Source: Nitrospira sp. (GTDB taxonomy: Bacteria > Nitrospirota > Nitrospiria > Nitrospirales > Nitrospiraceae). Taken from it: DNA of 47,691 nucleotides. The stretch spans positions 77,021-124,711 of the forward strand of contig SWDN01000011.1 in NCBI GenBank assembly GCA_005116775.1, read 5' to 3'. This document shows, piece by piece, positions 380 to 33,494 of the stretch. The notes beneath the pieces were generated by a model. The model made no database searches. It was not told where the DNA came from and saw only the letters and a list, made by a program, of their open reading frames with translations. The first letter of the stretch is position 1, and every line of letters begins with the position of its first letter. A program made the position numbers and the translations under genes.

Positions 380-1708
380 ATGACCACGACAGACCGCTCC
401 TCCCACGCGCTGCTCCTTCTGGCCCTCCTGCTTCTCTCCGGGTTGTTATTCTTCTTGGGGCTCGGCGACATGGGACTGACGGACCGCGACGAGGGGCGAA
501 ATGCCGAAGCGGGGCGCGAAATGTTCGAGTCGGGAGATCGCCTGACTCCGACGTTCAACGGTGAGCTACGCGTCGCAAAACCTGTCTTGCTCTATTGGCT
601 CATGGAGCAGTCGTATCGCCTGTTCGGTTCCAACGAGTTCGCCGCGCGATTCCCCTCGGCCCTCTTCGGCGTGGGGTTGATCCTCATGCACTACCTCTTT
701 CTCGTGCATCAGCGAGGTCAAACCATCGCGCTCTTCGGCGGGTTGATGCTCCTGCTCAACCTGGAAATCCTCGGACTCGGACGCATGGCGCTGACCGACA
801 GTGTCCTGATCTTTTTTACGACCGCGTCGCTGTACGGATTCTGGCTCGGGCTGCATGGAACCGGTGGTGTACGCCGATGGATCTGGATGTTCTATGTCGG
901 CATGGCGCTCGCCACGCTGACAAAGGGACCGGTCGGGTTCGCCGTACCTCTCGTCGCGGCAGCGCTGTACCTCACCTGGACACGCCGGTGGCAGGACTAT
1001 TGGCAGAAGGGAGTTCCTCTTATAGGCATCGCGGTATTTATTGCACTCGCCGCCCCCTGGTACGCAGCCATGTTCATTGTGCATGGCGACGCGTATGCCA
1101 CAGGCGCAAAGGCCCATACCATCGGCCGATTTCTCGCTCCAATGGAAGGACACCAGGGCACCATCTTCTTCTATCTCCCAGTCCTGCTCCTAGCCTTCTT
1201 TCCTTGGAGCGCGCTCCTTCCTGTCCCGCTCTACCACACGCTCAAAGACTGGTACCTCATACGCCGGGCACGGACCCAACCAGCCTCCACAGACACATCC
1301 GAGCTCGACCTCTTCGCCGCTCTTTGGCTGGTCGGCACCTTTCTATTCTTCACAGCCTCCGCGACCCGTCTGCCTCACTACATCGGGCCGCTGTTTCCTG
1401 CCGCCGCCCTGCTGACAGCCTCCTACTGGTCCCGGTGCCTGCATGATCCAGCCGCGAAGGGAATTCGGGGGTCCATCCATCTCATGATGGGGGTGGGATA
1501 TCTCTTGGCGATCGGCTTTGCCTGCCTTCCTACACTTTACACAACCTACGCCTCCAAGATGGTGCGGGAGTTCCCTTTGGCCGGGCAGGTCGATCTCGGT
1601 ATCCGTCTTTTACGGATGTCCATACGATCGTCTTGCCGTCCGGCGATATGGTCGCTTCCGCATCGTAGCCCGGCGTGGAGGTCAGTCGCTGCATCCCCTG
1701 TCCATTGA
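380..1708 (+). CDS. ArnT-like glycosyltransferase (GT39/GT83 type), 3'-truncated
   Basis: This is an integral-membrane glycosyltransferase of the ArnT/PMT superfamily, which moves a sugar from a polyprenyl-phosphate donor on the periplasmic side. It has an N-terminal hydrophobic segment (about 9-28), then the acidic catalytic loop with Asp-Glu at 37-38 in a DRDEGRNAEAGREMF context, and many further membrane helices. Family members usually run to about 550 residues with a periplasmic C-terminal domain. Here recognisable sequence stops near residue 405 (about position 1600). The last 40 or so residues are rich in Arg, Ser and Pro and are simply the complement of the TolB-like gene on the other strand. 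The 3' end therefore appears deleted and the encoded protein is probably non-functional. It pairs with the LABN gene just upstream. Confidence 0.8.
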   Translation: MTTTDRSSHALLLLALLLLSGLLFFLGLGDMGLTDRDEGRNAEAGREMFESGDRLTPTFNGELRVAKPVLLYWLMEQSYRLFGSNEFAARFPSALFGVGLILMHYLFLVHQRGQTIALFGGLMLLLNLEILGLGRMALTDSVLIFFTTASLYGFWLGLHGTGGVRRWIWMFYVGMALATLTKGPVGFAVPLVAAALYLTWTRRWQDYWQKGVPLIGIAVFIALAAPWYAAMFIVHGDAYATGAKAHTIGRFLAPMEGHQGTIFFYLPVLLLAFFPWSALLPVPLYHTLKDWYLIRRARTQPASTDTSELDLFAALWLVGTFLFFTASATRLPHYIGPLFPAAALLTASYWSRCLHDPAAKGIRGSIHLMMGVGYLLAIGFACLPTLYTTYASKMVREFPLAGQVDLGIRLLRMSIRSSCRPAIWSLPHRSPAWRSVAASPVH

Positions 1709-2204
1709 TGCCAATGGCGTAGATATCGTAGTCGTCCAAGGCCCAGCGGTAGGCTCCTTCTCGTTTCGGCTTCGGCGGACAGTTTGGCCCTGACGCATGG
1801 GTCGAAGAATAAAGCACGCGGCGATCGCCAGGGAAAAAGTATCCGCAGGTCGTGGCACCCATACCGGTGCTCACCAGTCGCACCGTGTCGCTTTCCAGAT
1901 CCATCACGTACATCTGATAACAACCCAGCCCAGCATCGGTCGGTTTGAGCGTGGCCGCGTATGTGTCTTTCATCCAATTGTTCGTGGACTGGAAAATCAA
2001 TTTGGTCCCGCTGAAGGAAAAGTAGGCTTCGGCATTCTGTCGGCCTACCGTGAGCTGGCGAATATTTTTCAGATGCCGTTCAGCCTGGTGAGCAGAAATC
2101 GTCAGAGTCTTTGAGCCGAGGTCCTCTGCCTGTCCTGTCTGCACACCCGGCAACAAACAGACCAATCCGATCGTGCACCATTTAGCGAATGGGATTGCTT
2201 GCAT
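1530..2204 (-). CDS. TolB-like WD40/PD40 beta-propeller exported protein, 3'-truncated
   Basis: The start at 2204 gives a normal signal peptide (MQAIPFAKWCTIGLVCLLPG, then Ala before Glu-Asp). Two PD40-type propeller repeats follow: one around AYFSFSGTKLIFQS and one around ATISPDGKTIVWTSVKDG. Between them lies a Cys-containing loop with the phrase FFPGDRRVLYSST. TolB-like exported propellers are normally 300-400 residues or longer. Here the second repeat breaks off just after KDG (about position 1602), and the remaining 23 residues are antisense to the glycosyltransferase. The C-terminus is therefore missing, at the same junction that truncates the convergent gene. The gene starts inside the last codons of the M1 peptidase remnant, so the two were probably co-transcribed. 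A periplasmic partner role is an inference. Confidence 0.65.
   Translation of the reverse strand: MQAIPFAKWCTIGLVCLLPGVQTGQAEDLGSKTLTISAHQAERHLKNIRQLTVGRQNAEAYFSFSGTKLIFQSTNNWMKDTYAATLKPTDAGLGCYQMYVMDLESDTVRLVSTGMGATTCGYFFPGDRRVLYSSTHASGPNCPPKPKREGAYRWALDDYDIYAIGINGQGMQRLTSTPGYDAEATISPDGKTIVWTSVKDGYRDRPARPKGTPAPSWRRRLCKV
1590..1610. other. Apparent deletion junction joining two convergent genes
   Basis: On the + strand, glycosyltransferase sequence is recognisable up to the codons for QVDLG. On the - strand, TolB-like sequence is recognisable up to the codons for VKDG. They meet here with no intergenic DNA, and both C-termini are missing. A single deletion spanning the two 3' ends would explain this, as would an assembly join. 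Confidence 0.65.
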
Positions 2205-3962
2205 CGAGACGCACCTCCATACGGTCACTGGCGAGCGGCCATTCCCCGCGAACAGCCGCTGCTCCGTCTTTAAACAACACGAAACTATTCCATCCGTAAA
2301 AAAAGAGCAGCCGCGCCACCTTCGTCACAGCCTGTGGCGTGGCCGCGTACAACACGGTGACGACGCTGCCTGGACGATCGACCCTGTGGCAACTGACCAA
2401 CAGAGCCAGCCCAGGCCCCTCGTGCGGCGTCCCCATCACGGTGACGCCCCTCTCGCTCAGGGTTGCGCGTTTTCCGCAATGGGTGGCCAGGATCGCCTGA
2501 ATTCTCTGACGGGATTCCGGGCCGCCCAATACTAGCACCGAACCCTCCTGAGGCAACAGTCCGTCTTGGGCCAACGCGACAATGGCCGTTCGGTCGCCGA
2601 CCGGTTTCTGGCGCTCCTGAGTTTCGATGCGCGCAATGACGTCCCGAAACGGCGAGGGATGGTCCGGCTCATCCGTAAACGCCGTCAACACCGAGCGCTG
2701 GCGATCGGTAACATAGTGATTGAGCACCGGTGACAGCGATTGCCGAGGGATCCGCCGGAAGGCCATGAAGTCGGGGTCGAGATCGATCGCGATCGGACGG
2801 GCAGGCAGGGTCACACCATCAGACGGCGCTGATCCTGCGCCTGCGCGCGATCCCCCGCCAGTTCGTGCCAGTAGTAATTGGCCAGATACGTCGTCAGACC
2901 TTCCACCCAATTCCCTCGCTCGGCGCGGTTGAACACATCGTTGCCGATCCACGAATGCACGATCTCGTGGCCGAGCGCATAGGGTTGCACATAATGCCGC
3001 TTGATGATGCCGCTCCCCAACAGCGTAAATGAAGGCATCCCGAGGCCGCTCGCAAAGAAATTCTCTACGACGGCGAACTTCTCAAACGGATAGGGTCCCA
3101 GCAGAGGAATATAGGCATCGAGGTAACGCGCTGTGGCATCGAGATATTCCCCGGCAAGATGCGCATCATCGGGGAAAAGGTAGGTCGAGAGACGAATCTT
3201 CTGGCCGGTCTGGGCCGTCCAGTCACGAACTGTTGAGACAAATGTATTCGCGACAAGCGTCAGGGCCTCGCTGGGCTCCGTCACGACCCATTCCGTTATC
3301 ACCATGTCATCGTGGCGACAGAGTTCCCTGGGGCAAGGGCGCGATTCGCCGGCCTTCCCTTGGGTCACGACCGTCCACCCTGTCGGCACGGCGACATGAA
3401 GTGTAAAGGTGCTGAGCGATTCCGGAACGTCGGGGTACCAAGAGGTTTCACTGCTGATGTAGACCCCTTCAGGCCCAATGTGTCCAGCCGTTTCACTCGG
3501 CGTGACGAATCGGAGATGGCGCGGATCTCGAGGCGGATCGTTGATGACACCGTGGTAGTGCACTTCCAGCGTCATTGATCCAGCGGTCACAAACTGCGCG
3601 GGGATACTCACCTCATGGACCGATTCCGGCGCAGAGCCACGCTTCAGTTCAAACGGTACATCATGGATCTGAGGTTCCACTCCAACCGATTCTTGCACGA
3701 GAGCAATCCGGTCGATTTGGAGGGTGGGGGCGAGGGAGAAACGAATCGGAGCCTTCTGTTGCGGCGCCTCAAGAGTCAACCGATCTTTGGCGATGAGCGT
3801 ATGCTGCTCAGGGACAATCTGTGCAACTATATCGTGATGCCGAATGGCGGCTTGCGGCGACGATGGGCCGTCTGCGTGGGCGATTCCGAAAGCCCCGTGG
3901 CTGAGGAGCACCGCGACGAGACAGAGACAAGGGGAAGAAACTATCCTGCTTCCGATTGGCAT
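2182..3962 (-). pseudogene. M1-family metallopeptidase, internally deleted and frame-shifted
   Basis: The 5' part (3962 to about 2812) encodes an exported zinc aminopeptidase-like protein. It has a signal peptide starting MPIGSRIVSSPCLCLVAVLL, a beta-rich N-domain, and the M1 motif HEIVHSW (about residues 331-337) with the third ligand Glu in GNWVEGLTTYLA. The spacing to that Glu is 17 residues, as in several bacterial M1 branches. The frame ends shortly after DRAQAQDQRRLMV. A second frame, from about 2822 down to 2182, carries what looks like the C-terminal part of the same family, beginning PARPIAIDLDPDFMAFRR. The helical segment expected between them is absent and the frame changes, so this is a gene with an internal deletion rather than two genes. 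The start at 3962 was preferred to 3998 because it begins the signal peptide directly. Confidence 0.65.
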
Positions 3963-3972
3963 CGGAAGAGTT

Positions 3973-4210
3973 TTAGCATTCGCGACAGACGAGCACAAGC
4001 TGGATGGAGGTCAGCAATCGTTCCAGATCGATCGGCTTCCCGATGACTTCCTGCGGCCCCAGAGCCCAGGCTTCGTCAAGCGTGTCTTCATCGTGACTCC
4101 CGGTGACGATGATCACCCCGCCGGTGTATTCGCGTTGACGGAGTTGCCTCAATGGACTACGCAACGCGAACCTCAGCCTATCACAGGCCATGTCGGCGGA
4201 GAAGAAAATG
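3973..4210 (-). pseudogene. Response-regulator receiver domain remnant (5' part missing)
   Basis: Only the second half of a CheY-like receiver can be recognised. Residues reading VIFFSAD fit beta-3 with the phosphoacceptor Asp. After a helix come GGVIIVTGSHDEDTLDEA (beta-4, with the Thr/Ser switch position) and EVIGKPIDLERLL, with the conserved Lys-Pro of beta-5. The first about 50 residues, including the acidic pocket of beta-1, are absent. A stop codon lies in frame just upstream, and the ftsY stop is only a few bases further. The nearest ATG (4191) lies after the beta-3 Asp, so any product from it could not be phosphorylated. It looks like a third deletion scar in this segment. A genuine short protein is possible but less likely. 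Confidence 0.5.
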
Positions 4211-4228
4211 ACGGGATCTCACCGGAGG

Positions 4229-5167
4229 TTACGCGGGAGGCACGGATGTCGTCCCGATAAGCGCGTCCACAAATGCATCGCTCTGAAAATCCTGCAAATC
4301 CTCGACCGACTCCCCGACTCCGACCAGCCGCACCGGCAACTTCAGTTCCTCGGCGATCGCGATGACAATCCCACCGCGAGCGGTGCCATCGAGCTTGGTC
4401 AGGACCAGGCCAGTGACACCGACCGCTTGATGAAACTGACGGGCTTGGGACAGCGCGTTCTGCCCGACTGTGGCGTCCAACACGAGGAGCACTTCGTGGG
4501 GCGCGCCAGGACATTCCTGCGCAATGATACGCGTGATCTTACGGAGTTCGTCCATGAGATTCGATTTGGTGTGCAGCCGGCCGGCCGTATCGATCAAGAC
4601 CACGTCTACCTGACGCGCTTTCGCGGCGGCGATTCCATCGAACGCGACGGCGGCCGGATCGGCCCCATGGCGGTGACGGATCACGTCGACGCCGACTCGG
4701 TCAGCCCAGATTTGCAACTGATCGATCGCTGCCGCGCGAAACGTATCACACGCAACCAGCAACGGCACTGTCCCTGCTTGCACGAGCCGTTGCGCAATCT
4801 TGGCGATCGTGGTCGTCTTACCCACACCATTTACCCCCACCGCCAGGATGACAAACGGCTTGGGGCCTTTCGCAATCAGGGGCTCCAACGACAGCCCTTG
4901 TACAGGCCTCAACGCATCGAGCAGGGTATCCCGTAATACCGCTTGCACTCGACCGGACTGTGAGGCATCGGTCCCTTGAAGCTGTTTCTTAAGACGCTCC
5001 ATCACACGATCTACAACGCGGGTACCAAGATCGGACGCGATGAGAGCCGCTTCGAATTCCTCCAGGAGGGCAGGATCCGCCGCACGGCCAAGCAGCCGAT
5101 CCAAGGACCCGCGAACGACATCGCGCGTTTTGGTGAGCCCGTCACTCAGTCGCTGCAGCCATCCCAT
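4229..5167 (-). CDS. ftsY: Signal recognition particle receptor FtsY
   Basis: FtsY is the membrane-associated SRP GTPase that docks ribosome-nascent chain-SRP complexes at the SecYEG translocon. The 312-residue protein has the NG-domain layout: a helical N domain (about 1-95), then G1 GVNGVGKTTT at 111-120, the DTFRAAA motif at 141-147, G3 DTAGR at 193-197, and G4 TKLDG at 257-261 followed by the closing ARGG loop. The acidic A domain of E. coli FtsY is absent, as in many bacteria with short FtsY. It begins 4 bp after the ybeY stop, so it probably forms one transcript with phoH and ybeY. The C-terminus looks complete. Confidence 0.96.
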   Translation of the reverse strand: MGWLQRLSDGLTKTRDVVRGSLDRLLGRAADPALLEEFEAALIASDLGTRVVDRVMERLKKQLQGTDASQSGRVQAVLRDTLLDALRPVQGLSLEPLIAKGPKPFVILAVGVNGVGKTTTIAKIAQRLVQAGTVPLLVACDTFRAAAIDQLQIWADRVGVDVIRHRHGADPAAVAFDGIAAAKARQVDVVLIDTAGRLHTKSNLMDELRKITRIIAQECPGAPHEVLLVLDATVGQNALSQARQFHQAVGVTGLVLTKLDGTARGGIVIAIAEELKLPVRLVGVGESVEDLQDFQSDAFVDALIGTTSVPPA

Positions 5168-5171
5168 AGAT

Positions 5172-5711
5172 CTACCCGTAATACGTCATGTGCCGTACGT
5201 CCCTCGACTTGGATCGGGACAGTGCGCCTGCCGAACCCTGACACGTTCGATTCGCTCGTTTCGGGACCCGCGCGATCGACCGCTGAATCATCCGTTCACG
5301 CCGATGCATTCGGCGCGCTTCTTTCTCGCTCCGCTCGTGATCGTAGCCGCAGAGATGCAAAATGCCGTGAATCAACAACCAAGCAAGCTCCTCGTCCAAG
5401 GATCGCCCGGCCTCTATCGCCTGTCGCCTCGCCGTGGGCACCGAGATTACTACATCGCCCAGCATATCCGGCGTGAGGCGTGAAGCCTGAGGCCCGGCGG
5501 CTTCCCGCATGGCAAAGGCCAGCACGTCGGTCGTACGATCCTTGCCCCGATACCGACGATTGAGACCTCTCATCCGCTGATCGCCCACGAACAGGATACA
5601 CAGCTCCGCCGACGTTTCCCCGACATCGGCAAGAATCGCACATGCCGACTGTGCCAAGCGCACCTGGTCAAACGTGATTCGCCGGACCTGACTCTGCATG
5701 TGGACCGGCAT
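5172..5711 (-). CDS. ybeY: Endoribonuclease YbeY (16S rRNA maturation)
   Basis: YbeY is a single-strand-specific, metal-dependent RNase that takes part in 16S rRNA 3'-end processing and ribosome quality control. The zinc-binding motif H-G-I-L-H-L-C-G-Y-D-H (HxxxHxxxxxH) lies at about residues 115-125. Upstream is the conserved stretch LNRRYRGKDRTTDVLAF. The ATG at 5711 overlaps the phoH stop in a TAATG arrangement and is preferred to the TTG at 5729. The usual domain ends about 30 residues before the stop. The remaining tail is rich in Arg, Lys and Ser and has no recognised function. The neighbours phoH and ftsY are common ybeY partners. Confidence 0.93.
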   Translation of the reverse strand: MPVHMQSQVRRITFDQVRLAQSACAILADVGETSAELCILFVGDQRMRGLNRRYRGKDRTTDVLAFAMREAAGPQASRLTPDMLGDVVISVPTARRQAIEAGRSLDEELAWLLIHGILHLCGYDHERSEKEARRMHRRERMIQRSIARVPKRANRTCQGSAGALSRSKSRDVRHMTYYG

Positions 5712-6781
5712 TAATGCGACTGGCCCCAAGAATCCGTGGGCAGCGAAGAAGGGGTGGCAGGCTTCGGATGTTTATTTTGAGGCGCTGGCGACGGTCGACG
5801 TCCTGCCGCGCCGGAAGAGGGGCCGGAAGACTGAGCGGGGTTTTGATGCTGATCGTACGCTTTGATAATGTCCTGCACCAACTTGTGACGAACCACATCG
5901 CGCTCGTCGAAATACACGAACTCGATGCCCTCGACGTCACGCAGAATCTGCCGCACCTCGATCAGGCCGGAGACCCGCTCGGGCGGCAAGTCCACCTGTG
6001 TGATATCGCCGGTAACGACCACCTTAGAGTGAAACCCAAGCCGCGTAAGAAACATTTTCATTTGCTCGGCCGTGGCGTTCTGCGCTTCGTCGAGAATGAC
6101 AAACGAATCGTTTAACGTGCGGCCCCGCATAAACCCGAGCGGCGCGATTTCAATGTCGCCTCGTTCGATCGCGCGTGAGGCCCGCTCCATATCCATCATG
6201 TCGAACAGCGCATCGTACAGAGGGCGGAGATACGGGTTCACTTTGGCGTACATATCGCCCGGCAGAAATCCGAGCTTCTCACCCGCTTCAACAGCCGGCC
6301 GCGCGAGAATGATACGGCTCACTTCCTTCTTCAACAACGCGCTCACAGCCATCGCCATCGCCAGATAGGTCTTGCCTGTCCCGGCCGGACCAATTCCAAT
6401 GACGATGTCGTGCGTTTCGATGGCTTCGATATAGGCTTTTTGCGTCGGTGTTTTCGGCGCGACGAAACGCTTCTTAGTGACGATCGTCGCCGCGTTGGAG
6501 AGGAGTTCTTTAATCGGAATCTCAGGACTCTGACGGAGCGCGCTCAAGGCGTGGGCAATATCGTCTGGCTGGAGCACCATCCCATCATTGGCGAGAGTGG
6601 CGAGTTCCGTGAGGACACGTTCCGCATGGCGGGTGGCGTCTGGAGTGCCGTCGAGAGTGAGTTCTTCTCCGCGCGCCGAGAGGCGCACACCGAGGTCTTC
6701 TTCGATCAGCTTGAGGTGCCGGTCGTGGTGACCGAACAGAACGGCAGTATTGGTGCCTTCTCGTAGTTTAAGTTTACGCAC
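5711..6781 (-). CDS. ybeZ: PhoH-like ATPase (YbeZ family)
   Basis: The encoded 356-residue protein has an N-terminal region typical of PhoH-like proteins (about 1-100). The PhoH ATPase core follows, with Walker A GPAGTGKTYL at 131-140, the conserved RPAVEAGEKLGFLPGD at about 161-176, and Walker B VILDEAQN at 228-235. A Pro/Ser-rich tail with no homology I recognise begins near residue 310. YbeZ proteins act with YbeY in RNA metabolism, and the genes overlap here by one base in a TAATG arrangement, which suggests translational coupling. The start is GTG at 6781, about 35 nt below a predicted sigma70-like promoter. Confidence 0.92.
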   Translation of the reverse strand: MRKLKLREGTNTAVLFGHHDRHLKLIEEDLGVRLSARGEELTLDGTPDATRHAERVLTELATLANDGMVLQPDDIAHALSALRQSPEIPIKELLSNAATIVTKKRFVAPKTPTQKAYIEAIETHDIVIGIGPAGTGKTYLAMAMAVSALLKKEVSRIILARPAVEAGEKLGFLPGDMYAKVNPYLRPLYDALFDMMDMERASRAIERGDIEIAPLGFMRGRTLNDSFVILDEAQNATAEQMKMFLTRLGFHSKVVVTGDITQVDLPPERVSGLIEVRQILRDVEGIEFVYFDERDVVRHKLVQDIIKAYDQHQNPAQSSGPSSGAAGRRPSPAPQNKHPKPATPSSLPTDSWGQSH

Positions 6782-6822
6782 GCTAGGGTGAGAATAGACC
6801 TTTCTCGTTCAGATGTAGTGGT

Positions 6823-6852
6823 ACTCTAACAGATGACCTGAAAGACTGACAA
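6823..6852 (-). promoter_or_regulatory. Predicted sigma70-type promoter for phoH-ybeY-ftsY
   Basis: On the - strand the -35 box is TTGTCA (6852-6847, 5 of 6 consensus bases), followed by an 18-bp spacer and the -10 box TAGAGT (6828-6823, 4 of 6). Transcription would begin about 35 nt before the phoH GTG. This comes from sequence matching only. Confidence 0.45.
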
Positions 6853-6884
6853 GCAAAGACTCACGATTCATTCGTTGAAGAGAT

Positions 6885-7898
6885 TTATGATGCCGACGCG
6901 GGGGAAACCAGGGAGACTTCAAAGTTTTGAAAGGCCGATCCACCGTAACCATCTTGAACGGCCACACGCACCTGATACGTTCCTTTTACATCTGATCGAA
7001 CCTGCCACGTGATAACTCCTGTCGCTGGATCAATGATCATCCCGGGTGGGGCCGACTCTAGCTGGTACTTCAGGGTGTCCTTATCCTCATCGACGGCCTG
7101 CACCGCGTAAGACAACATATCCTTTCCAAAGTTGGAAGGAGGCAGAGACGTAATTGTAGGTGCACTGTTTCCCAACGCAATGGGTTCCGATAACCTGGGC
7201 TTTCCGGCTCCGCTAGCATCACGCGGGGTGACTTCCACGGTTAGAGAGTCCCCACGAGTAAATGATCCGGTATCCAACGTCGACTGTTCTCCCTCCAAGA
7301 CAATCGTGGTATTCCTTCGCCATCGATACACATACGTGACAGTATCCCGATCGACATCGAGGCTTTCCACGACAGCATGAAAACGAGTTCTATCCGAGCC
7401 AGTCGGTTCGATTACAACCTTTGTCACTTCAGGAAGAGTATTGCCCACAACCACTGCAGGAGCCCGAAAAGGCTTGCTTTCTACCTGTCCATCTGAGGCG
7501 ATAACTTCTGCCTGTACTTGATCTCCCCGCTTGAGAAAACTGGGAGCCAATGTCGGACGAGTTTCTCCTTCGACAAGATTCCCATTGATGAACCATTGAT
7601 GTCGAAATGTGAGGGGATTTCGATCCGGATCTTCGGCCTCGATCTGAACCGATACTGGACCATTCAATAGGATGGGGTTGGGGAGAACGGTTGCTCTCTG
7701 AATCGCTGGTGCATGATTACCGCCTGGAGGACCGTTTCCGCCTGACGGACCGGACTCTGACGTACATCCGACCAGAAGTATCAAGGGGAGAACAGCGGCT
7801 TGGAAGAACCCACGCCCTCTATTCGAGGCCTGGGGTTTATCACCCCAGACCCCGAACCAGCTCAGAAACACGGTGAGATGGTTTATTGATTGATCCAC
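6885..7898 (-). CDS. Putative lipoprotein with Ig/cadherin-like repeats, linked to pilY1
   Basis: The N-terminus carries a hydrophobic stretch ending in the lipobox LLVGC (Cys near residue 45), then a Gly/Pro-rich linker. The body contains about three beta-sandwich repeats with recurring phrases such as 'EAEDPDRNPLTF', 'VESLDVDRDTVTY' and 'QAVDEDKDTLKY'. These are the acidic turns of cadherin-like or bacterial Ig (PKD/He-PIG) folds, and the last repeat has the He-PIG style PPGMIIDPATGVITW. The gene begins with GTG at 7898, overlapping the end of pilY1 by 16 bp, so it is co-expressed with the pilus tip adhesin. An outer-membrane-anchored partner of PilY1 or an adhesin is a reasonable inference. 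The start is uncertain because 45 residues precede the lipobox; a GTG at 7871 is an alternative. Confidence 0.7.
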   Translation of the reverse strand: MDQSINHLTVFLSWFGVWGDKPQASNRGRGFFQAAVLPLILLVGCTSESGPSGGNGPPGGNHAPAIQRATVLPNPILLNGPVSVQIEAEDPDRNPLTFRHQWFINGNLVEGETRPTLAPSFLKRGDQVQAEVIASDGQVESKPFRAPAVVVGNTLPEVTKVVIEPTGSDRTRFHAVVESLDVDRDTVTYVYRWRRNTTIVLEGEQSTLDTGSFTRGDSLTVEVTPRDASGAGKPRLSEPIALGNSAPTITSLPPSNFGKDMLSYAVQAVDEDKDTLKYQLESAPPGMIIDPATGVITWQVRSDVKGTYQVRVAVQDGYGGSAFQNFEVSLVSPASAS

Positions 7899-12349: not shown

Positions 12350-12417
12350 GGCAAGTCCCTCCTCATTCGTTGATGCTCACAATAACCAACATTCGACATA
12401 GATCATCCATCAATTCG

Positions 12418-12736: not shown

Positions 12737-13354
12737 CTATGTAATCTTCTTGGAACATTCCACTGCGCTTACGTTCTTTATACACGCGTATACGGCGGTC
12801 TCCGAGCTGACGGTTCCTGTCGCGGCGTTTGTGGCTACGCAGTTGATGCGATACACGAAAGTATAATTCCCTTGCTGTGAGCCTTGAGTATTGTGGTGAT
12901 ACAGCCGGTCAATGTCCCCAGTCACGGCAAAGCCTCCGACGGCCATCCTCAGATTGGGGGGATTCGATGCTGCGGTATCGAGACTGTTTGTCATGCCGGG
13001 GGCTCCTTTTATCTCCTGACGCAATGTGTCTGCAATAGCTACAGGCACTGGACCTCCGGCGGTCTCCAGAAATGCTGGGGGAATCGCTGCCGCGTTTTGT
13101 GGCATCCAGGCCTGTCGAATAACGTTCACCCCCACGCCGATACAGGAGCCCGCCGCCGCTGCCGCCGTTTCACCGCTTCGAACGAACCCCGACATTCTGT
13201 TTTCCGACCCGGTGATTGTCAGTGAGGCAATGCCTATGATGGTCATGACGACGAGCAACAGCATGACCGTCATTAGCGCGACCCCTTCTTGGCCAGGCTT
13301 CATTCCTTTTCTCGAACCGCTCTGTTGTCCTCTTTGCACGGTACGGTCGTTCAT
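12737..13354 (-). CDS. pilX: PilX-like minor pilin
   Basis: The encoded 205-residue protein has a basic leader of about 24 residues ending in Gly (GQEG), then a hydrophobic helix starting VALMTVMLLLVVMTIIGIASLTITG. The helix continues into the SENRMSGF motif typical of PilX_N. Position +5 is Thr and not the usual Glu, as in tip-located pseudopilins such as GspK. Its ATG overlaps the pilW stop as ATGA. With FimT, PilV and PilW it would form the priming complex on which PilY1 sits. The processing enzyme would be the prepilin peptidase encoded at about 21.2-22.0 kb. Confidence 0.87.
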   Translation of the reverse strand: MNDRTVQRGQQSGSRKGMKPGQEGVALMTVMLLLVVMTIIGIASLTITGSENRMSGFVRSGETAAAAAGSCIGVGVNVIRQAWMPQNAAAIPPAFLETAGGPVPVAIADTLRQEIKGAPGMTNSLDTAASNPPNLRMAVGGFAVTGDIDRLYHHNTQGSQQGNYTFVYRINCVATNAATGTVSSETAVYACIKNVSAVECSKKIT

Positions 13355-22480: not shown

Positions 22481-23258
22481 GCGTTGATCGGGGCGCGATA
22501 GGTTTGTGGCGCTGACGCACTGCTTCGAACAGCGTGACGGCTGCCGCAGCCGAGACATTCAACGATTGAATGTGACCTCGCATCGGGATCCTGATGCGGT
22601 CGTCACATTCTTTCAGCACCCCAGGACGAAGGCCTTCTCCTTCTCCTCCGAGCACCAGCGCAATCGGTCCGGTCATGTCGATGTCAGTATGGAGCTTCTC
22701 CGCCTGTGGATCGACACCATAGATCCACAGGCCTGCTTCTTTGAGATTCTGAATCAGGCGAATCAAGTTCCCCACGCGCCCGACGGAGATGTGATCGAGC
22801 GCTCCGGCTGATACTTTCGCTACCACCGATGTCAGACCGACTGCGCGGCGTTCCGGGATAAACACCCCATGAACACCCGCCGCTTCGGCCGTCCGCAAAA
22901 CCGCTCCTAAGTTATGTGGATCTTCGACCCCATCGAGGAGCACGAGAAACGGCTTCTCACTTCTAGCCTTGGCCCGGTCGAGAATCTGTTCCATCGAGTC
23001 GTAGGATTTCGCGGCGATGAGTGCGATCACGCCCTGGTGGGTTCCGCCAGGCGCCAAGCGATCGAAGGCAGAAGGAGGTTCGATATGAACTGGAACTCCC
23101 TGCGCCTTCGCCAGTTGGACAAGGTCGTGGAATTGCCGATCGGTTCGCAGCACGAGCAGGCGTTGGAGCGGACGAGTACCAGCGCGCAAGGCTTCGCGCA
23201 CAGCATGCAGACCATAAATCAGTTCAGGAGGACTATCGCTTCCACCGGCTGGTGCCAT
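22467..23258 (-). CDS. rlmB: 23S rRNA 2'-O-methyltransferase RlmB (TrmH/SPOUT family)
   Basis: RlmB methylates the ribose of G2251 (E. coli numbering) in 23S rRNA, using S-adenosylmethionine. The substrate-binding domain begins [15 protein letters not shown]. The SPOUT knot motifs follow: motif 1 [19 protein letters not shown], motif 2 [13 protein letters not shown] and motif 3 [18 protein letters not shown]. The ATG at 23258 gives about 263 residues, close to the family norm, and overlaps the cysS end by 26 bp. A longer in-frame extension rich in Arg and Ser is probably not translated. Confidence 0.93.
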
Positions 23259-24471
23259 CGGGCTTGTCCTCGATGACGATGCCGTGGGACGCGAGAGATT
23301 TCCTGATCTCATCGGCCCTTGCAAAGTCCTTCTTCTTTTTTGCATCAAGTCGCTCCGCGATCTGCTGCTCAATCTGGTCTTCCGAGAGTTCAATCTTGGG
23401 TGATACCGGACCAACCGTGACGGTCGGGGCAAAGGTCGTCAGCTTGAGGGACGCGGCACCTGGCGTCACAACTATGCCTCCTACGAACTGCCACTTATCT
23501 AACTGAAGCAATCCCAGGTTATTGCCGAGCGATCGAAATTCTTCTCTAGCAATCTTTCGCGCCTCCGTCGAGAGGCCTAGGCCCAGTAATTTATTGACGT
23601 CGCTTTTCATTCGCTGAAGCTCAGCAATGGCCACTGATGTGTTGATCGTGAAGAAGTTCCCCAATGACTTGGACATCTTCTCCTGATTGATCTGCACGAA
23701 ACCGTTGTGGACCCAATAGCGCGCAAATTCTTTTCCCGTCGCTCCACATGACTGTGCAATTTCATTTTCATGATGCGGAAAGATCAGGTCCATCCCTCCG
23801 CCATGAATGTCGAATGTTTCGCCGAGGTGTTTCATGGACATCGCCGAGCATTCAATGTGCCAACCGGGACGCCCGGCTCCCCACGGGCTCTCCCATGACG
23901 GCTCGCCAGGTTTGCTGCTCTTCCAAAGCGCGAAATCCATCGGATGGCGTTTTCGTTCATTCACCTCCACACGCGCGCCGGCTTGCAAATCTTCAAGCTT
24001 ACGTTTCGAGAGGCGCCCATAGGGCTGATATTTTTCAACTTGGAAATAGACATCCCCGGCTACTTCATAGGCGAGGCCTTTCTGAATTAGCCTAGCGGCC
24101 AGCTCAATGATCTCGGCCATATGTTCCGTCGCTTTCGGCTCGTTCGTTGCTCGCCTGATCCCAAGTTTCCCCATGTCCTGAGAGTAGGCCTTGATGAACT
24201 CAGCTGTGATGGCATCGCAGGATACGCCTCGTTCATTCGCCCGCTTGATAATCTTGTCATCCACGTCGGTGAAGTTCTTGACGAATTCAACCTGGTAGCC
24301 GCTGAATTCGAGATACCGCCGGATCACGTCGAATACGAGCGCGCTGCGCGCATGACCGATATGACAGTAGTCGTAGACGGTCACGCCGCAGACATACATC
24401 CGTACGGTCTTCGGCTGGAGCGACTGGAACGGCTCCTTTTTGCCTGTGAGCGTGTTGTAGATGGAGAGCAT
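23233..24471 (-). CDS. cysS: Cysteinyl-tRNA synthetase with apparent 70-residue internal deletion
   Basis: CysRS charges tRNA-Cys. The catalytic fold is clear: HIGH at 37-40, zinc ligands C28, C208, H233 and E237, and KMSKS at 265-269. After GNFFTI (271-276) the sequence jumps to [19 protein letters not shown], which aligns with the segment following DDDFNT in E. coli CysRS. Some 70 residues normally between them are missing, including the highly conserved RYFL...HYR helix. The reading frame is kept. The product is 412 residues against about 460-490 for the family. A Val/Thr/Pro-rich insertion is present near 325-360. The lost segment packs against the active site, so the product is probably inactive unless this is an assembly error. 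Confidence 0.9.
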
Positions 24472-24477
24472 GGCTGG

Positions 24478-25116: not shown

Positions 25117-25121
25117 AGCCT

Positions 25122-25925: not shown

Positions 25926-25940
25926 GGGTTCTTTAGGAAC

Positions 25941-25965: not shown

Positions 25966-26053
25966 CTGTTTCAACGCTGAGTCCTGAGGACCGAGTCCCC
26001 GACGTCCTTTTGCGTCTCAGCCCTCAACACTCATCGCTCAGCACTATCTATTT

Positions 26054-26130
26054 TGGTCGGGGCGAGCCGATTTGAACGGCCGACCACTCGCACCCCAAGC
26101 GAGTACGCTACCGGGCTGCGCCACGCCCCG
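26054..26130 (-). tRNA. tRNA-Pro (anticodon GGG)
   Basis: On the - strand the gene folds as a 77-nt cloverleaf. The acceptor stem is CGGGGCG/CGCCCCG with discriminator A and encoded CCA. The anticodon stem is CTCGC/GCGAG with loop TTGGGGT. The T arm is GGCCG-TTCAAAT-CGGCT. The GGG anticodon reads CCC and CCU proline codons. Confidence 0.95.
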
Positions 26131-26220
26131 ACAGGCTCTCTTCAATTCCACCAGGCCCACATTGTCTCCCTGAAGACAACTGGAATGCAACCGGCTCGAA
26201 AGGGACAGAACGGACCCACG

Positions 26221-26571
26221 TCAGTCGGAATACGACTCCATGATTTTGAGAATTGCTTGAAGATTCCCCCGCAGTTTCTGCGCAAGTTCTTTGGGCCGTA
26301 CCCGCTGGCTTGCCACCCGGCCTCGCCTAGCCCAGTATCGCTTCACACCTGCGAGCGTATGCCCTTCTTCGTAGAGCATCCGCTTGATCTCCAGCACTGT
26401 TTCGACTTCTCGCCTGACATAGAGCCGTTGATTCCCACGACTTTTCTTTGGCTTGAGAAATGGGAACTCCGACTCCCAGAATCGCAGCACGTAAGCCGGC
26501 AATTCAGTAATCTGGCTGACTTCGCCAATTTTATAAAAAACCTTGCTGCCCAGCCTGGGCTCGTTCCCCAT
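26221..26571 (-). CDS. MerR-family transcriptional regulator
   Basis: This 116-residue protein begins with a MerR winged helix-turn-helix: FYKIGEVSQITELPAYVLRFWESEFPFLKPKKSRGNQRLY, then RREVETVLEIKRMLYEEGHTLAGVKRYW. Only a short helical tail follows, with no metal-binding Cys or effector domain. Small MerR proteins of this type are regularly found beside ihfA in many bacteria and are of unknown target. It lies 42 bp after ihfA on the same strand and about 90 bp before tRNA-Pro. Confidence 0.9.
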   Translation of the reverse strand: MGNEPRLGSKVFYKIGEVSQITELPAYVLRFWESEFPFLKPKKSRGNQRLYVRREVETVLEIKRMLYEEGHTLAGVKRYWARRGRVASQRVRPKELAQKLRGNLQAILKIMESYSD

Positions 26572-26613
26572 GACCGGTCCTCGTGGTGGGATGAGTTACG
26601 GTGATTGACGAGG

Positions 26614-26889
26614 CTATGAATTGACGTATTTCTTAAACACTTGACTGGGACGAAAGGTCACCACACGGCGAGGCGTGATACCGATTTCTTCGCCGGTTCG
26701 AGGATTCCGGCCTTTCCGTGCCCCCTTGCTGCGTACCACAAAGTTTCCGAATCCAGCAATCTTGACTGACTCCCCCTTGTGCAGCACTTCTTTCAACATA
26801 TTCAGCACGAGTTCGACAATGTCAGCCGCTTCATTTTTTGAAATACCGACCTGCTTGTAGATTTCGTTTGCGATATCTGCCTTTCGCAT
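26614..26889 (-). CDS. ihfA: Integration host factor alpha subunit / HU-family protein
   Basis: This is a DNA-bending nucleoid protein of 91 residues. It has the HU/IHF fold, starting MRKADIANEIYKQVGISKNEAADIVE, with KIAGFGNFVVRSKGARKGRNPRTGEEI, the conserved Pro of the DNA-inserting arm, and TPRRVVTFRPSQVFK. The sequence is closer to IHF-alpha than to HU by the RKGRNPRTGEEI pattern, though the distinction is not absolute. The ATG at 26889 has GGAGGGG upstream. The gene precedes a merR gene, a common arrangement. Confidence 0.93.
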   Translation of the reverse strand: MRKADIANEIYKQVGISKNEAADIVELVLNMLKEVLHKGESVKIAGFGNFVVRSKGARKGRNPRTGEEIGITPRRVVTFRPSQVFKKYVNS

Positions 26890-26968
26890 GCGTTCCCCTC
26901 CGACGCCTCCACTCACTTCTTGAATGATCGAACGTGGTCTCTCTACAAACGATCAGCAGTTTCGCTAT

Positions 26969-26997
26969 AAGTTACGTGAGGTTATAAGGCCTGTCAA
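26969..26997 (-). promoter_or_regulatory. Predicted sigma70-type promoter for ihfA
   Basis: On the - strand, a perfect -35 TTGACA (26997-26992) is followed by 17 bp and TAACTT (26974-26969, 3 of 6). It lies between the cimA stop and ihfA, about 75 nt before the ATG. Confidence 0.45.
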
Positions 26998-27026
26998 GCA
27001 GAAAGATGCCGAATTGGACATCCGAC

Positions 27027-28682
27027 TCATTCGTTCTTGGCTAGCAACTTGTACTCGATGCTGTCTGCCAGCGCTTGCCAGCTCGCTTCCATGATGTTCT
27101 CAGACACGCCGACGGTGCCCCATTTGTCCTTGTGGTCGCCTGATTCGATCAGTACACGGACTTTGGACTCCGTCCCACGATTCGCCGACAACACTCGCAC
27201 TTTGTAGTCGAGCAATTTGACTTCTCTGAGTTGCGGGTAAAATTTTTCCAATGCCTTTCGTAACGCGTGGTCGAGCGCATTGACCGGGCCGGCGCCGACC
27301 GCTGCCGCATGTTCTATCACGTGACCGACCTTCACCATCACCGTGGCTTCAGACGACGAAGGACCATGGTCCTGCTTTTTCTCGACAATGACCCGAAACC
27401 CAAGGAGCTGAAAGGACGGTCTGTGCGTCCCCATGGCTTTTCGCATCAACAATTCGAAGGAGCCTTCCGCCGCTTCAAATTGATACCCTTCATTTTCACG
27501 CTCCTTCAGAGTATCGATCAATTCCCGCACCTTGGCATCGCCCTTGTCCAATTTGATTCCGTAGGCTTCGACTTTCTCCAGCAATCCACTCCGGCCAGCA
27601 GCATCCGAGACCAACATACGCTGGCGATTCCCGACTAACACCGGAATCACATGTTCGTACGTCACGGGATTCTTCAGCACCGCGTGGATATGAACCCCAC
27701 CCTTATGCGCAAATGCCGAATCTCCCACATAGGGCTGATGCGTATTGGGCATGAGGTTGGCGATCTCGGTGACGAACCCAGAAACCTGTTTGAGTTGGTT
27801 CAAACGGTCTCTCAACACCGGACGTTTCATCTTCAGTTCAAGATTGGGGATAATCGAACAGAGATTGGCATTGCCGCACCGTTCGCCGATACCGTTAATG
27901 GTCCCCTGCACTTGCACCACACCGGTTTCGATCGCCACCAGTGAGTTTGCGACAGCCATTTCGCAATCGTTGTGGGCATGGATGCCCAAGGGCACAGGAC
28001 ATTCCCGCCGCACCACTTGGCAAATTTCTTTGATCTCCCAGGGCATCGTTCCGCCGTTAGTGTCGCAGAGAATCACCCGCTCGGCTCCTGCTGCGACGGC
28101 CTGACGAATCGTTTCCAATGCGTAGTCCGGATTCGCCTTATACCCGTCAAAAAAATGTTCCGCATCGTAGAACACCCTCCGGCCTTTCGAGCGGAGATGG
28201 GCCACGGAATCGCCGATGATCTCCAGATTCTTCGCCAGGGAAATGCCGAGCGCATCGGTGACGTGCAGCGACCAGGTTTTTCCAAACAGTGTGATGATCG
28301 CGGTCTCTGCCTCCAGCAATGCCCGGATATTCAAATCCTTCTGTACCGCATTACTCGATTTTCTCGTCGCCCCGAATGCCACGACTGTCGCCGTTTGCAA
28401 CGGAACGGTTTTGATCATTCGAAAGAACTCGATGTCTTTAGGGTTTGCCCCCGGCCACCCGCCTTCAATGAACTGCACACCCAGCCCATCCAACTGTTGG
28501 GCGACCCGAACCTTGTCTTCGGCTGAGAAACTGACGTCTTCAGCCTGAGCCCCATCCCGCAATGTCGTATCGTAAATTTCCAGCGTAGCCGGCTTGACGG
28601 CAGACAGAGATGTGTCGGACGACGCCGATCGGCCGCCCGGCTTGCGTGGCGAGGATCGTGATGGTGAAGATTTTCGAGTCAT
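27027..28682 (-). CDS. cimA: (R)-citramalate synthase CimA
   Basis: CimA condenses acetyl-CoA with pyruvate to citramalate, the first step of the threonine-independent isoleucine pathway. The 551-residue protein has the DRE-TIM barrel: YDTTLRDGAQAEDVSFSAEDK near 34-54, the HxH metal motif GIHAHNDCEMAVANS, and NGIGERCGNANLCSIIPNLEL. The C-terminal LeuA-type allosteric domain is present, with AVGAGPVNALDHALRKAL. The phrase LGVQFIEGGWPGANPKD and the overall length favour CimA over 2-isopropylmalate synthase or homocitrate synthase. It closes the aspartate-family operon. Confidence 0.92.
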   Translation of the reverse strand: MTRKSSPSRSSPRKPGGRSASSDTSLSAVKPATLEIYDTTLRDGAQAEDVSFSAEDKVRVAQQLDGLGVQFIEGGWPGANPKDIEFFRMIKTVPLQTATVVAFGATRKSSNAVQKDLNIRALLEAETAIITLFGKTWSLHVTDALGISLAKNLEIIGDSVAHLRSKGRRVFYDAEHFFDGYKANPDYALETIRQAVAAGAERVILCDTNGGTMPWEIKEICQVVRRECPVPLGIHAHNDCEMAVANSLVAIETGVVQVQGTINGIGERCGNANLCSIIPNLELKMKRPVLRDRLNQLKQVSGFVTEIANLMPNTHQPYVGDSAFAHKGGVHIHAVLKNPVTYEHVIPVLVGNRQRMLVSDAAGRSGLLEKVEAYGIKLDKGDAKVRELIDTLKERENEGYQFEAAEGSFELLMRKAMGTHRPSFQLLGFRVIVEKKQDHGPSSSEATVMVKVGHVIEHAAAVGAGPVNALDHALRKALEKFYPQLREVKLLDYKVRVLSANRGTESKVRVLIESGDHKDKWGTVGVSENIMEASWQALADSIEYKLLAKNE

Positions 28683-28761
28683 AGGGGGAACGATACCAGG
28701 AGCGGGACAGGCCTGTCGAGACTCACCTCGCCGAAATCTGCGACATCAAGTTTCGATTCCC

Positions 28762-29982
28762 TCACAGCGACTGATCCAGCCCAAACGCGGAATGAAGCGA
28801 GCGCATCGCGAGCTCGACATACTTTTCATCGATGACACAGGAAATCTTGATCTCCGACGTGCTGATCATGAGAATGTTCACGCCTTCCTGCGAGAGGATT
28901 TCAAACATCTTGGCTGCGACCCCTGAATGAGAACGCATCCCGACACCGACCAGCGACACCTTCGCGATCGCCTCGGTCACCGCGACAGATTTGGCATCGA
29001 TGCCTTTCGCTACATCCTGAATCAGCGGCAGCGCTTTCTTGATGTCCGCCCGTGGAATCGTGAAGGAAATATCCGTCATGCCCGACTGGCTCATATTCTG
29101 GATGATCATATCCACGTTGATGTTGGCCTTGGCCACCGGCCCAAAGAGTTTGGATGCAATACCCGGTTTGTCCGGCACACCCACAATCGTAATCTTCGCC
29201 TGATTCCGATCGCCGGTGACTCCTGAAACTGCAACCGCTTCCATATCCTCGTCTTCACGTGTCACGAGCGTCCCCTTCCCTTCTTTGAAACTGGAGTTCA
29301 CTTCTACCGGCACGTTGAACTTCGCGGCAAATTCGACGGAGCGGCTCTGGAGTACTTTGGCGCCCAGACTGGCCATTTCCAGCATTTCCTCGTAGGCAAT
29401 CTTGTCGATTCGTCGAGCCGCTGGAACGATGTTGGGGTCCGAGGTATAGACGCCATCGACATCGGTAAAAATGATGCACCGATCGGCCTTCAGCGCCGCC
29501 GCCAATGCGACGGCTGTGAGATCAGACCCTCCGCGCCCCAGCGTTGTGACATCCGACTGCTCGTTGATCCCCTGAAAACCCGCAACCACGGGAATCACCC
29601 CCTTGAGCAGAGCCTCGCGGATTCGATCGGCGCTCACCCGTGTGATACGCGCTTTCGTATGGGCGCTGTCGGTCATGATGCCGACTTGACGTCCCGTAAA
29701 AGATTGGGCATCGAGCCCCCTGGCCCGCAAGGCCATCGCCAGCAACGCAATGGTCACCCGCTCTCCGGTCGACAGCAACATGTCGAGTTCGCGATCGTCC
29801 GGCATCGACGCAACTTCGTGCGCCAGCCGAAGCAGCCGGTCCGTCTCTCCGCTCATCGCGGACAGCACGACCACGACGCGATCACCGTCCTTGTGAGCCC
29901 TCTCGACGCGGTCAGCCACACGGTGGATCCGTTCGATCGTACCCACCGATGTCCCCCCGTATTTCTGAACGATCAGTGCCAC
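28762..29982 (-). CDS. lysC: Aspartate kinase
   Basis: LysC phosphorylates aspartate, opening the pathway to lysine, threonine and methionine. The 406-residue monofunctional enzyme begins [19 protein letters not shown]. The catalytic phrases [35 protein letters not shown] and [14 protein letters not shown] are intact. Two ACT domains make up the last 150 residues, beginning at [19 protein letters not shown], and would give feedback control. It starts 5 bp after the ApgM-type gene's stop and precedes cimA. Confidence 0.95.
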
Positions 29983-29987
29983 GCCCC

Positions 29988-31229
29988 TCAGGATCCTTTA
30001 GCAAAGAGCCGCACAACAAACTTGGTTGCATCGCGGGGAGGCACAACCGAGGATCGAGCGTCGATCTCGATAAATCTCCGTTTGTTCTCGGCGGAGGTGC
30101 CTCCTGTACTATCGTGATAGGCAAAGAACCCTGGACCCTCTCCTGCTTGCCCATGGTGGACGTTGCCTGAATCGCACACGGCTGCGATACGGTGAGGGCC
30201 TAATTTGGCTAGTCCTTCGAGCAACGGCCCCACCAGTTCCTGATCGATCGCTTCGATCCCCTTCACCTTCGCGGCAACATCTACTCCATAGACAACCTCG
30301 TCCGGCAACTCGACATGCACATAGGCGAAATCCTTTTGCCTCAACTCCTCCAACGCAATGGCCGCTTGAGTTCGAAGCCCCACGCCGGCCAATCTCGCGC
30401 CGTCCACAGCTTCGAGGCCGGCCATGATCCCGAGTCCGCGATGGACATCGCTCTGGGAAACCACAACGCCGGACATCTTCAATCGTTCAGCAAGACTTGG
30501 CCAGAGAACGGCCTTGCCTTGGCCCCAAAGCCAGAGACAATTGGCCGGCTTCTGCTTCGCATCCAGACGTTCATCGTTGAGAGGGTGGTCGCGCAAGATC
30601 TGAAATGAGGCATCCATAAGTTTCCCAAGAATGTCGGATCCATCTCCCGTCGGTAAGGCATCGGCAATCGGTCGGCCAATCAATACCTGTGGATCGGTAC
30701 AGACCGCTTTCGACTTCCCGTTGACCCACACCATGAGATGGCGATGGCCCAACCCCGGATAAAATTGAATCATCTCAGAGCCGAGCTGTTCATTGATCGC
30801 CTCGATCAACTCGCGGGCCTCTTCTGTCGAAATCAGACCGGCAGTCGCGTCATCCATCACGACATGCGGTCCGAGCTTCTTGATCTCGTTCAATCCGCCT
30901 TTACGCGTATACTGCGCGTCTGCCTGCAACGTCACCATCGTACAGCGATACACCACATCATGTTCACCGATAGCGACTCCCAGACTGGCCGCCTCCAGCG
31001 GACCTGGCCCCTGATAGTATTTCTTCGGATCGTATCCGAGAAGAGCGGTTCCAATCAGACCGTTTCCCTGTCGCACATTCTCAGGTACCGTAGCCAAGAG
31101 CCCAAACTCCCCGGCTTGTGCGAGGCGGTCCAGGTGAGGGGTCGAAGCCACTTGAAGGGGAGTCTGTCCGCCCAATTCATTCCGAGAATGGTCTACCATC
31201 CCCTCGGCATGGAGAATCACATGTTTCAT
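29988..31229 (-). CDS. ApgM-family enzyme, probable homoserine kinase
   Basis: The protein belongs to the archaeal-type, cofactor-independent phosphoglycerate mutase family in the alkaline phosphatase superfamily. It has [30 protein letters not shown] and [25 protein letters not shown] at the N-terminus, and [25 protein letters not shown] with [20 protein letters not shown] in the C-terminal half. A subgroup with this fold is modelled as a proposed homoserine kinase (TIGR02535) in bacteria lacking classical ThrB. Here the gene lies between thrC and lysC and downstream of hom, with no other kinase candidate. I therefore infer homoserine kinase (EC 2.7.1.39) rather than glycolytic mutase. Length (413) is normal for the family. 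Confidence 0.82.
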
Positions 31230-31251
31230 AGAAGCCCTGTGCTCATATGGT

Positions 31252-32310
31252 CTACATCCTTAACAGACGAGCGACATCCTCCCGCGTCGCTCTAACGGTT
31301 TTGGGCTGGGCCGATACATTGATAGCCGTATCGGCATCTTTCAATCCATGGCCGGTCAAGGTACAAACCACAACCTCGCCTTCACGCAATCCACCTTGCT
31401 TGCTCAACTTCATCACACCGGCCACCGATGCGGCGGACGCTGGCTCACAGAACACTCCTTCGGTCGCCGCCACCGTCCTATAGGCCTGGAGAATCTCCTC
31501 GTCCGTTACCGAGTCGATCCCGCCCATAGATTCCTTCACGGCACTCACAGCTGCTTCCCAGCTGGCAGGATTGCCGATCCGAATTGCCGTGGCTACCGTC
31601 TGCGGGTTTTCCACGATGTGGCCAAGCACAATGGGGGCGGCGCCGGCCGCCTGAAATCCGATCATACGAGGCAGCCGCGTGGATTGATTCGCCGCACGAT
31701 ATTCCTTGTATCCCTTCCAATAGGCAGTAATGTTGCCGGCATTCCCCACCGGCAACACATGCACCGTCGGAGCATCGCCGAGCTGATCGCAAACTTCCAT
31801 TGCGGCGGTTTTCTGTCCCTCGATCCGGTAAGGATTGATCGAGTTGACCAGCTCAATGCGATAGGTTGCCGACAACTCTTTGACGATGGCCAAGGCCTGG
31901 TCAAAATTTCCTTCGATTTGGATGACCGTGGCTTGATGCATCATGGCTTGAGACAGTTTCCCCATTGCAATCTTCCCGGCAGGGATCAACACATAGACCG
32001 CCAGCCCCGCTCGCGCCCCATAGGCTGCGGCAGAGGCGGAGGTATTCCCCGTGGAAGCGCAAATCACCGCCTTGGCGCCGGACTCGACGGCCTTTGAAAT
32101 GGCCATCGTCATGCCGCGATCCTTAAAGGACCCGGTTGGATTCATGCCTTCACATTTGAGATAGAGATCGATGCCGGGAGCGATCTGCTTGGCCAGCCGC
32201 TTCGCCCTGATGAGCGGCGTGTTGCCTTCTCCGAGCGTCACCACAGGGGTATCATCGGTCACCGGGAGAAACTTGCGATATTCTTCTATCGCACCGCGCC
32301 AGCGAATCAT
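31252..32310 (-). CDS. thrC: Threonine synthase
   Basis: ThrC converts O-phosphohomoserine to threonine with pyridoxal phosphate. From the ATG at 32310 the protein has 352 residues, the short type. The PLP lysine is K63 in [30 protein letters not shown] follows, and [21 protein letters not shown] binds the phosphate. The start at 32310 lies just after the hom stop at 32315 and was preferred to 32337, which overlaps it. It is followed by the ApgM-type gene, so hom, thrC and the probable kinase are contiguous. Confidence 0.94.
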
Positions 32311-32314
32311 CGCA

Positions 32315-33494
32315 TTACTCGTCCTTGCCCTCGACACGAATCAACGTCGTCGGCTCGGAAATAAAGGCCATCTGATTGATGGCTCGCAACGCCGTTTGAA
32401 CATCGCGTTCTGTAGCCATATGGGTCTTGATCACGACTGGAACCGTCTGCCCTTCACGTCGTCCCTGTTGCAGGACGGACGAGATACTGATCCCACACCG
32501 CCCCAACTCTCCTGCGATATGCGACAAGACACCGGGGCGGTCCAGCACCATAAATCGGAGGTAATAGAGCGAGCTGATTTCTTCCATCGACCGCATGCGA
32601 AGCGGGCGACGCTGGTCTTGTTGGAACGAAACAGTCGGGACCCGCCCAACCGCTCCCTTCAACAGATTCCGCGCGATGGCGATAAGGTCGCCGACCACCG
32701 CACTGCCGGTCGGCATGGACCCAGCACCACGGCCATAGAACACCACATCGCCGACGGCATCGCCGATAAATTGGATCGCGTTGTACACGCCTTCAACTTG
32801 GGCGATCGGAGACGAGGACGGAAGCATCGTGGGATGCACTCGAGCTTCGACTTCGCCGCCAATCAGCTTGGCAATCCCCAACAGCTTGATCGTACAACCG
32901 AACTCTTTGGCGTACGCAATATCGAGCGGAGTAATGTGGGTGATCCCCTCGGTATACACATCCTTCATATTGACCGGTGTTCCATAGGCCAGCGATACCA
33001 GGATCGCCAGCTTGTGCGCCGAATCGATGCCGGCCACATCGAAGGTCGGATCGGCCTCGGCATAACCGGCCTGCTTCGCTTCATCCAGTACCGTCTCAAA
33101 ACTCTGCCCTTCACGAGTCATGCGAGAGAGAATGTAATTGGCTGTCCCGTTGATGATCCCATAAACAGATTGAATGGTGTTGGCCGCCAACCCTTCCCGC
33201 AACGCCTGAATGACCGGAATCCCTCCACCTACGCTCGCTTCGAAACCGAGGTCGACACCAGCACGGGACGCGGCGGCAAATATTTCTTCTCCATGTAACG
33301 CCAGCAGAGCCTTGTTGGCAGTGACGACCTGTTTGCCCGCCGCGATGGCCTCCAAAATGATGCGCTTGGCAACATCGGAGCCTCCAATCAGCTCCACAAC
33401 GATATCGATCGACGGATCGGTGAGAATCTGTTTCGCATCGGAGGTAAGAAGACCGGAGGGTAGGGCCGATGCCGACGCCCACGCGCGAAATCAT
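32315..33494 (-). pseudogene. hom: Homoserine dehydrogenase with deleted, frame-shifted N-terminus
   Basis: From 33441 downward the frame encodes a normal homoserine dehydrogenase: ILTDPSIDIVVELIGG, then TANKALLALHG, FEASVGGGIPVIQAL, GIINGTANYILSRM, AEADPTFDVAGIDSAHKLAIL, and a C-terminal ACT domain near FMVLDRPGVLSHIAGEL. The expected start is also present: an ATG at 33494 overlaps the aminotransferase stop as ATGA and encodes MISRVGVGI. After about ten codons the frame is lost. The Gly-rich NAD(P) loop (GxGxxG) and about 45 further residues are missing. Translation from the first ATG would yield only a frame-shifted peptide, and an internal GTG at 33397 would give a protein without the cofactor-binding loop. 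Either the gene is broken or the assembly is. Confidence 0.85.

Follow-up and report, generated by a model that had tools for sequence, protein, structure and literature searches.

Errors of metagenome assembly are the closest described counterparts of the breaks analysed here. In the relocations considered by MetaQUAST and metaMIC, two places of one genome stand in one contig and alignment to related genomes makes this visible, and in these respects the present case is alike; the metaMIC paper lists relocation among the misassembly types and describes errors as hard to distinguish from real structural variation (PMC9661791). It differs in that most breaks here skip 0.1-3 kb in order, with a broken gene as the first sign, and are known from sequence alignment rather than from reads. 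Assembly benchmarks also tally gaps, captured gaps and negative gaps (Plantagora, PMC3236183). The runs of 100 N in the present assembly resemble gaps of nominal size, whereas the unmarked breaks differ from scaffold gaps and negative gaps alike: the gap is truly positive (at least 134 bp missing) but is written as zero.

The window, i.e. the whole stretch of 47,691 nucleotides analysed, corresponds to C3:77021-124711 of a Nitrospira sp. genome of 2,670,838 bases in 53 contigs, with a reported completeness of 70.19% and contamination of 1.7%. This genome is probably metagenome-derived, like the Nitrospira records found by protein search, and its scaffolds reach up to 515 kb. The window is an N-free piece of the 286-kb scaffold C3, flanked by runs of 100 N at C3:76921-77020 and C3:124712-124811. 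Each of its five sites was aligned to seven relatives (six at cysS), viewed at base level and then compared with three more; the relatives are genomes of the same genus, none conspecific, about 78-90% identical where well aligned. The comparison across the assembly covered about 14% of the genome; a stretch of C51 was left out for too little synteny, while the stretches of C45 and a second one of C51 were used solely for N runs and one repeat count. The five sites are very probably unassembled gaps joined without Ns, and the broken genes are almost certainly an error of assembly rather than a biological feature.

According to the sequence-only reading, protein sequence is interrupted by a missing block and then taken up again at five sites of the window, in cysS, hom, an M1 peptidase gene and two others. 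The alignments bear this out, as the relatives are colinear on both sides and carry DNA absent from the window at each of them (Table 1); only the position of the third, given as 4.21 kb, was about 50 bp off. The frame is indeed kept in cysS (261 bp, i.e. 87 codons) and lost in hom (134 bp) and the M1 gene (481 bp).

Table 1. Genes and unmarked joins in the affected parts of the window (positions are those of the window).
Feature	Position	Strand	Remarks
PMT-family glycosyltransferase gene, 3' end cut	380..1603	+	408/578 residues of the G012 homologue match
Junction 1, unmarked join	1602..1607	.	Relatives with 2.2-2.5 kb here
PD40/TolB-like gene, 5' part	1604..2228	-	PF07676
M1-family peptidase gene, 3' part	2185..2814	-	Residues 555-764 of the G012 homologue; PF01433 in that homologue
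Junction 2, unmarked join inside M1 gene	2813..2815	.	481 bp missing, frame lost
M1-family peptidase gene, 5' part	2814..3998	-	Residues 1-394
Response regulator gene remnant	3976..4152	-	Residues 203-261 of 261; PF00072
Junction 3, unmarked join between response regulator and region beside ftsY	4148..4177	.	580-914 bp missing
ftsY (SRP54-type GTPase) ORF, adjoins junction 3	4229..5167	-	PF00448
cysS (cysteinyl-tRNA synthetase), without 87 internal codons after KMSKS	23233..24471	-	Sole strong PF01406 match in the genome
Junction 4, unmarked join in cysS	23644..23645	.	261 bp missing, frame kept
hom (homoserine dehydrogenase), without 134 bp near 5' end, frame lost	32315..33494	-	Sole match in the genome
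Junction 5, unmarked join in hom	33465..33468	.	134 bp missing vs 10/10 relatives

At junction 1 all ten relatives have 2,211-2,549 extra bp at window position 1603. In G012 the block encodes the rest of the PMT-family protein (578 residues) and, in addition, a PAP2-family protein of 374 residues, the gene of which was not found in C3:40001-150000 of the Nitrospira sp. genome. The glycosyltransferase ORF continues through foreign sequence as far as 1708, and the PD40/TolB-like gene, judging from its direction, appears to have lost its 3' end at the same join. Junction 2, with up to three bases (CAC) common to both sides, lacks 478-481 bp at position 2814 relative to nine of the ten relatives and 1,824 relative to G033; the block falls within the 764-residue M1 peptidase of G012. 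At junction 3, where about 20 bases fit neither side well, the stated range of missing DNA was found against 9/9 testable relatives (G036 was excluded for an N run near there). The block is contained in the response regulator homologue of G012, a protein of 261 residues with two receiver-domain stretches. Further candidate breaks at 5712 and at 17.6, 26.6, 40.9 and 46.0 kb of the window were rejected, as the relatives disagree among themselves or the difference is below 100 bp.

Shortened forms of cysS and hom are not the normal state of the relatives. At window position 23645, 261 bp are missing relative to G032, G012 and G007, with the left flank aligned to the edge, and the same value was obtained with three of three further relatives; in G018, G008 and G014 the 283-325 window bases before the edge are unaligned and the difference is 237-303, so these three are left out of the count for 261 bp. 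A wider survey of cysS in 31 other genomes gave 261 or 264 extra bases in all 17 that were testable (13 matched the right flank only and one the left flank only). For hom, 133-238 bp separate the flanks in all 34 testable loci, as against 2 in the window; this survey, which overlaps with the other relatives compared, comprised 80 fetched loci, of which 46 had no match to one or both flanks. The replacement copies that real deletions had been taken to imply were not found: the one hom match in the genome is the broken copy, and besides the broken cysS there are two weak matches (26.5 and 20 bits) and no second strong one, an absence that in a genome 70% complete is no proof. The missing blocks too were not found elsewhere in the assembly (one search covering 40 of 124 candidates), apart from a short dispersed repeat that two of the blocks contain. 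That neither blocks nor second copies turn up elsewhere argues for an assembly origin, although for the blocks it is also what a true deletion would leave.

Comparable joins extend beyond the window. They were called where the query had at most 30 unaligned bases and the relative at least 100 more, with support from at least two relatives. Across C3:40001-150000, judged by four relatives, the Nitrospira sp. genome has ten unmarked joins over 65-75 kb aligned, five being the window's sites and five others lying in the neighbouring 62 kb. When G032, G018, G012 and G007 were themselves the queries (at least two of the other three supporting), each gave none over 78-102 kb aligned, a difference obtained with one and the same caller that favours an assembly origin; a stricter call with three relatives together gave 6-8 joins against none. 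The joins measure 134-3,112 bp (7,713 in one row), and at C3:136.25 kb the relatives differ, with 154-171 against 1,608 bp. At C9:200000-239999 the caller found two joins in the Nitrospira sp. genome (one of them common to G018 and G012), one each in G018, G012 and G007, and none in G032. Join density is thus uneven along the assembly, which weighs against an assembly origin. At C23:200000-239999, viewed against two relatives and without the caller, there is at least one break by both, near C23:231.74 kb, where the genome's own gap is 22-30 bases against 253 and 308 in the relatives. Joins therefore occur across the assembly and in genes of many kinds, with weaker evidence outside C3 (two on C9 and the join of the block swap described below). 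Among the relatives, G007 (83% complete) has a single break of this unmarked kind on its contig C2, at position 13333 of the stretch as reversed, where three relatives exceed it by 583-598 bp.

Judged by six relatives, G034 gave two events, G033 three and G036 nine; events supported by two relatives only may be insertions in those relatives. G036, with about 50 contigs, 82% completeness and 100-N runs of its own, has four unmarked breaks supported by five or six of the six, corresponding to about C3:66.2, 103.3, 125.6 and 129.0 kb. Three of the four lie less than 1 kb from a join or N run of the Nitrospira sp. genome, and an N run of G036 sits inside the block missing from the latter at C3:131.78 kb. 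Some stretches may simply be hard to assemble, and the presence of like breaks in another low-completeness genome is in keeping with an assembly origin.

The marked gaps of the same scaffolds are informative. There are six runs in C3:1-224711, each of exactly 100 N, two of them bounding the window; G032 also has such runs, so that writing gaps as 100 N is common, and masking is an unlikely source since it would be expected to preserve length. Six runs, four on C3 and two on C9, were compared with the relatives. These have 1.3-1.4 kb at C3:63763, 1.1-1.4 kb (5.1 in G018) at C3:76921, 1.0-1.1 kb at C3:124712, 1.3 kb at C9:217399 and 3.5 kb at a mis-ordered site on C9. Five of the six thus lack about 1 kb or more, so marked and unmarked joins mostly miss similar amounts, and this, with the window itself bounded by such runs, points to assembly; the exception, C3:133155-133254, where the relatives have only 57-241 bp (318 in G034), about the span of the N run, counts against it. 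The mis-ordered site, C9:202967-208809, shows two adjacent blocks swapped relative to five of five relatives, four of which were redrawn. Where the relatives have the order A-B, the Nitrospira sp. genome has the N run, B, about 120 unaligned bases, A and then an unmarked join at C9:208808|208809, which is the proper place of the displaced block B. A single scaffolding error explains the order, the N run and the join together, and this pairing of a marked gap with an unmarked join is a further argument that the joins arose in assembly.

Gene content is affected to the extent that the completeness score predicts. Of 48 genes intact in G012, G032, G018 and G007, a set that does not include cysS, the Nitrospira sp. 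genome has 33 intact (69%, close to the reported completeness), 11 broken and four absent. When two relatives served as filter and the third was tested, 48 genes were intact in each case, with one broken and eight absent of 57 in G032, two and one of 51 in G018, and nine and one of 58 in G007; on the same three sets the Nitrospira sp. genome had 34/57, 34/51 and 38/58 intact. The nine broken genes of G007, together with its completeness, indicate that this genome is not clean either. With two exceptions, the broken genes stop either at one of the counted joins or at an N run: at C3:126.9 kb there is an additional break, where 78 bases of the Nitrospira sp. genome stay unaligned, and the match of gene o101 extends about 110 bases beyond the join at C3:131.78 kb. 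The broken genes are under purifying selection much like the intact ones, the median pN/pS against G012 being 0.148 (n=11) for broken and 0.170 (n=33) for intact genes, with the broken genes at 0.147 and 0.134 in G032 and G007. The highest value among them is that of o38 (0.31 over 170 codons; 0.20-0.23 in relatives), and the M1 gene, at 0.265, is comparable to the relatives at 0.26-0.29. One gene, o101, is raised (0.246 against 0.084-0.090 in relatives) and counts against an assembly origin, though its match overrunning the join may account for this. Neither general relaxation of selection nor decay is seen, and the agreement of intactness with completeness, in genes that retain selection, again speaks for assembly.

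The suggestion of the sequence-only reading that the assembly is collapsed or mis-joined, which it rated no less likely than a biological cause, is therefore well supported, by the joins beyond the window, the likeness of most N gaps, the combination of 70% completeness with 53 contigs and the mis-ordered blocks. We envisage that base-accurate pieces were ordered into long scaffolds through some long-range information, and that while certain gaps were given a run of exactly 100 N, others would have been closed by abutting the ends, silently dropping 0.1-3 kb of real DNA; the joins would thus be a product of scaffolding or gap closing. In the organism itself cysS, hom and the genes of the M1 peptidase and the response regulator are very probably intact.

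Of the alternatives, loss or collapse mediated by repeats, in which dispersed hairpin repeats made the assembler or recombination skip DNA, survives best but is improbable. At five of ten joins, window junctions 1 and 3 among them, the missing block of G032 carries sequence that recurs within about 385 kb of the G032 genome (four of these blocks have 5-18 copies, the fifth has one match of 395 bp). However, junctions 2, 4 and 5 have none, the repeats lie within the blocks and not at both edges, and random blocks bear repeats as well (from 4/59 at 134 bp to 24/58 at 2,270 bp), so that five of ten is not clearly above expectation. Repeats as the cause of unassembled gaps would in any case be compatible with the assembly explanation.

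Far less probable are real recent deletions in a burst of genome reduction, with core functions resting on copies elsewhere. The clean edges suit them, as does a raised number of tied bases at the junctions, which also weighs against an assembly origin: over ten junctions the mean of tied positions is 2.1, compared with 1.08 for 600 simulated junctions (about 2% by resampling), the simulation being confined to gap-free aligned sequence in all four relatives, which lowers its ties. The excess stems from three junctions in poorly conserved sequence and is not seen over the window's five (P = 0.21), and microhomology was rejected on this ground; direct repeats at both ends of the blocks in relatives were not found either, clear junctions having 0-3 bases common to both sides. 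Against deletion stand the involvement of cysS and hom without a replacement found, the pN/pS of broken genes (o101 excepted), the similar amounts missing at most marked gaps and a rate of conserved-gene breakage that matches the completeness score; a genome with about one third of its conserved genes broken would hardly be free-living. A living Nitrospira lineage that is losing small pieces of DNA in a burst, at roughly one deletion every 10 kb, with even single-copy cysS and hom hit too recently for decay, is less credible still. Equally hard to credit are chimeras of whole-genome amplification from little DNA, fixed in the assembly: low completeness would fit and deletions are one known product of such amplification, but its chimeras are mostly inversions with short homology, whereas the joins here retain orientation, an inverted-match search against G032 over 800 bp turned up just one hit, at 71%, and the scaffolds are long.

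As biology the five sites have no significance; their value lies in the caution they give where draft genomes are used to claim gene loss. The Nitrospira sp. genome represents a species in a public collection, and quality scores reveal unmarked joins only as low completeness, while such joins would make genes seem lost or fused when they are not and would misstate gene order. The warning sign is few contigs combined with low completeness, as in this genome and in G036.

The dispersed repeats themselves are about 110-172 bp in length and form long hairpins (L162:2362-2533, L162:3409-3536, L162:57-200 and L055:9978-10105), with the three in L162 folding at -69 to -95 kcal/mol. L162 has no Rfam match, and five repeat queries gave no match in the window. 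Two of the repeats have the common ends 'TAGCAGGATGCTGAA...GAGCATCCTGCG'. With several copies in the Nitrospira sp. genome and many in its relatives, they resemble small mobile elements or REP-like sequences of the genus.
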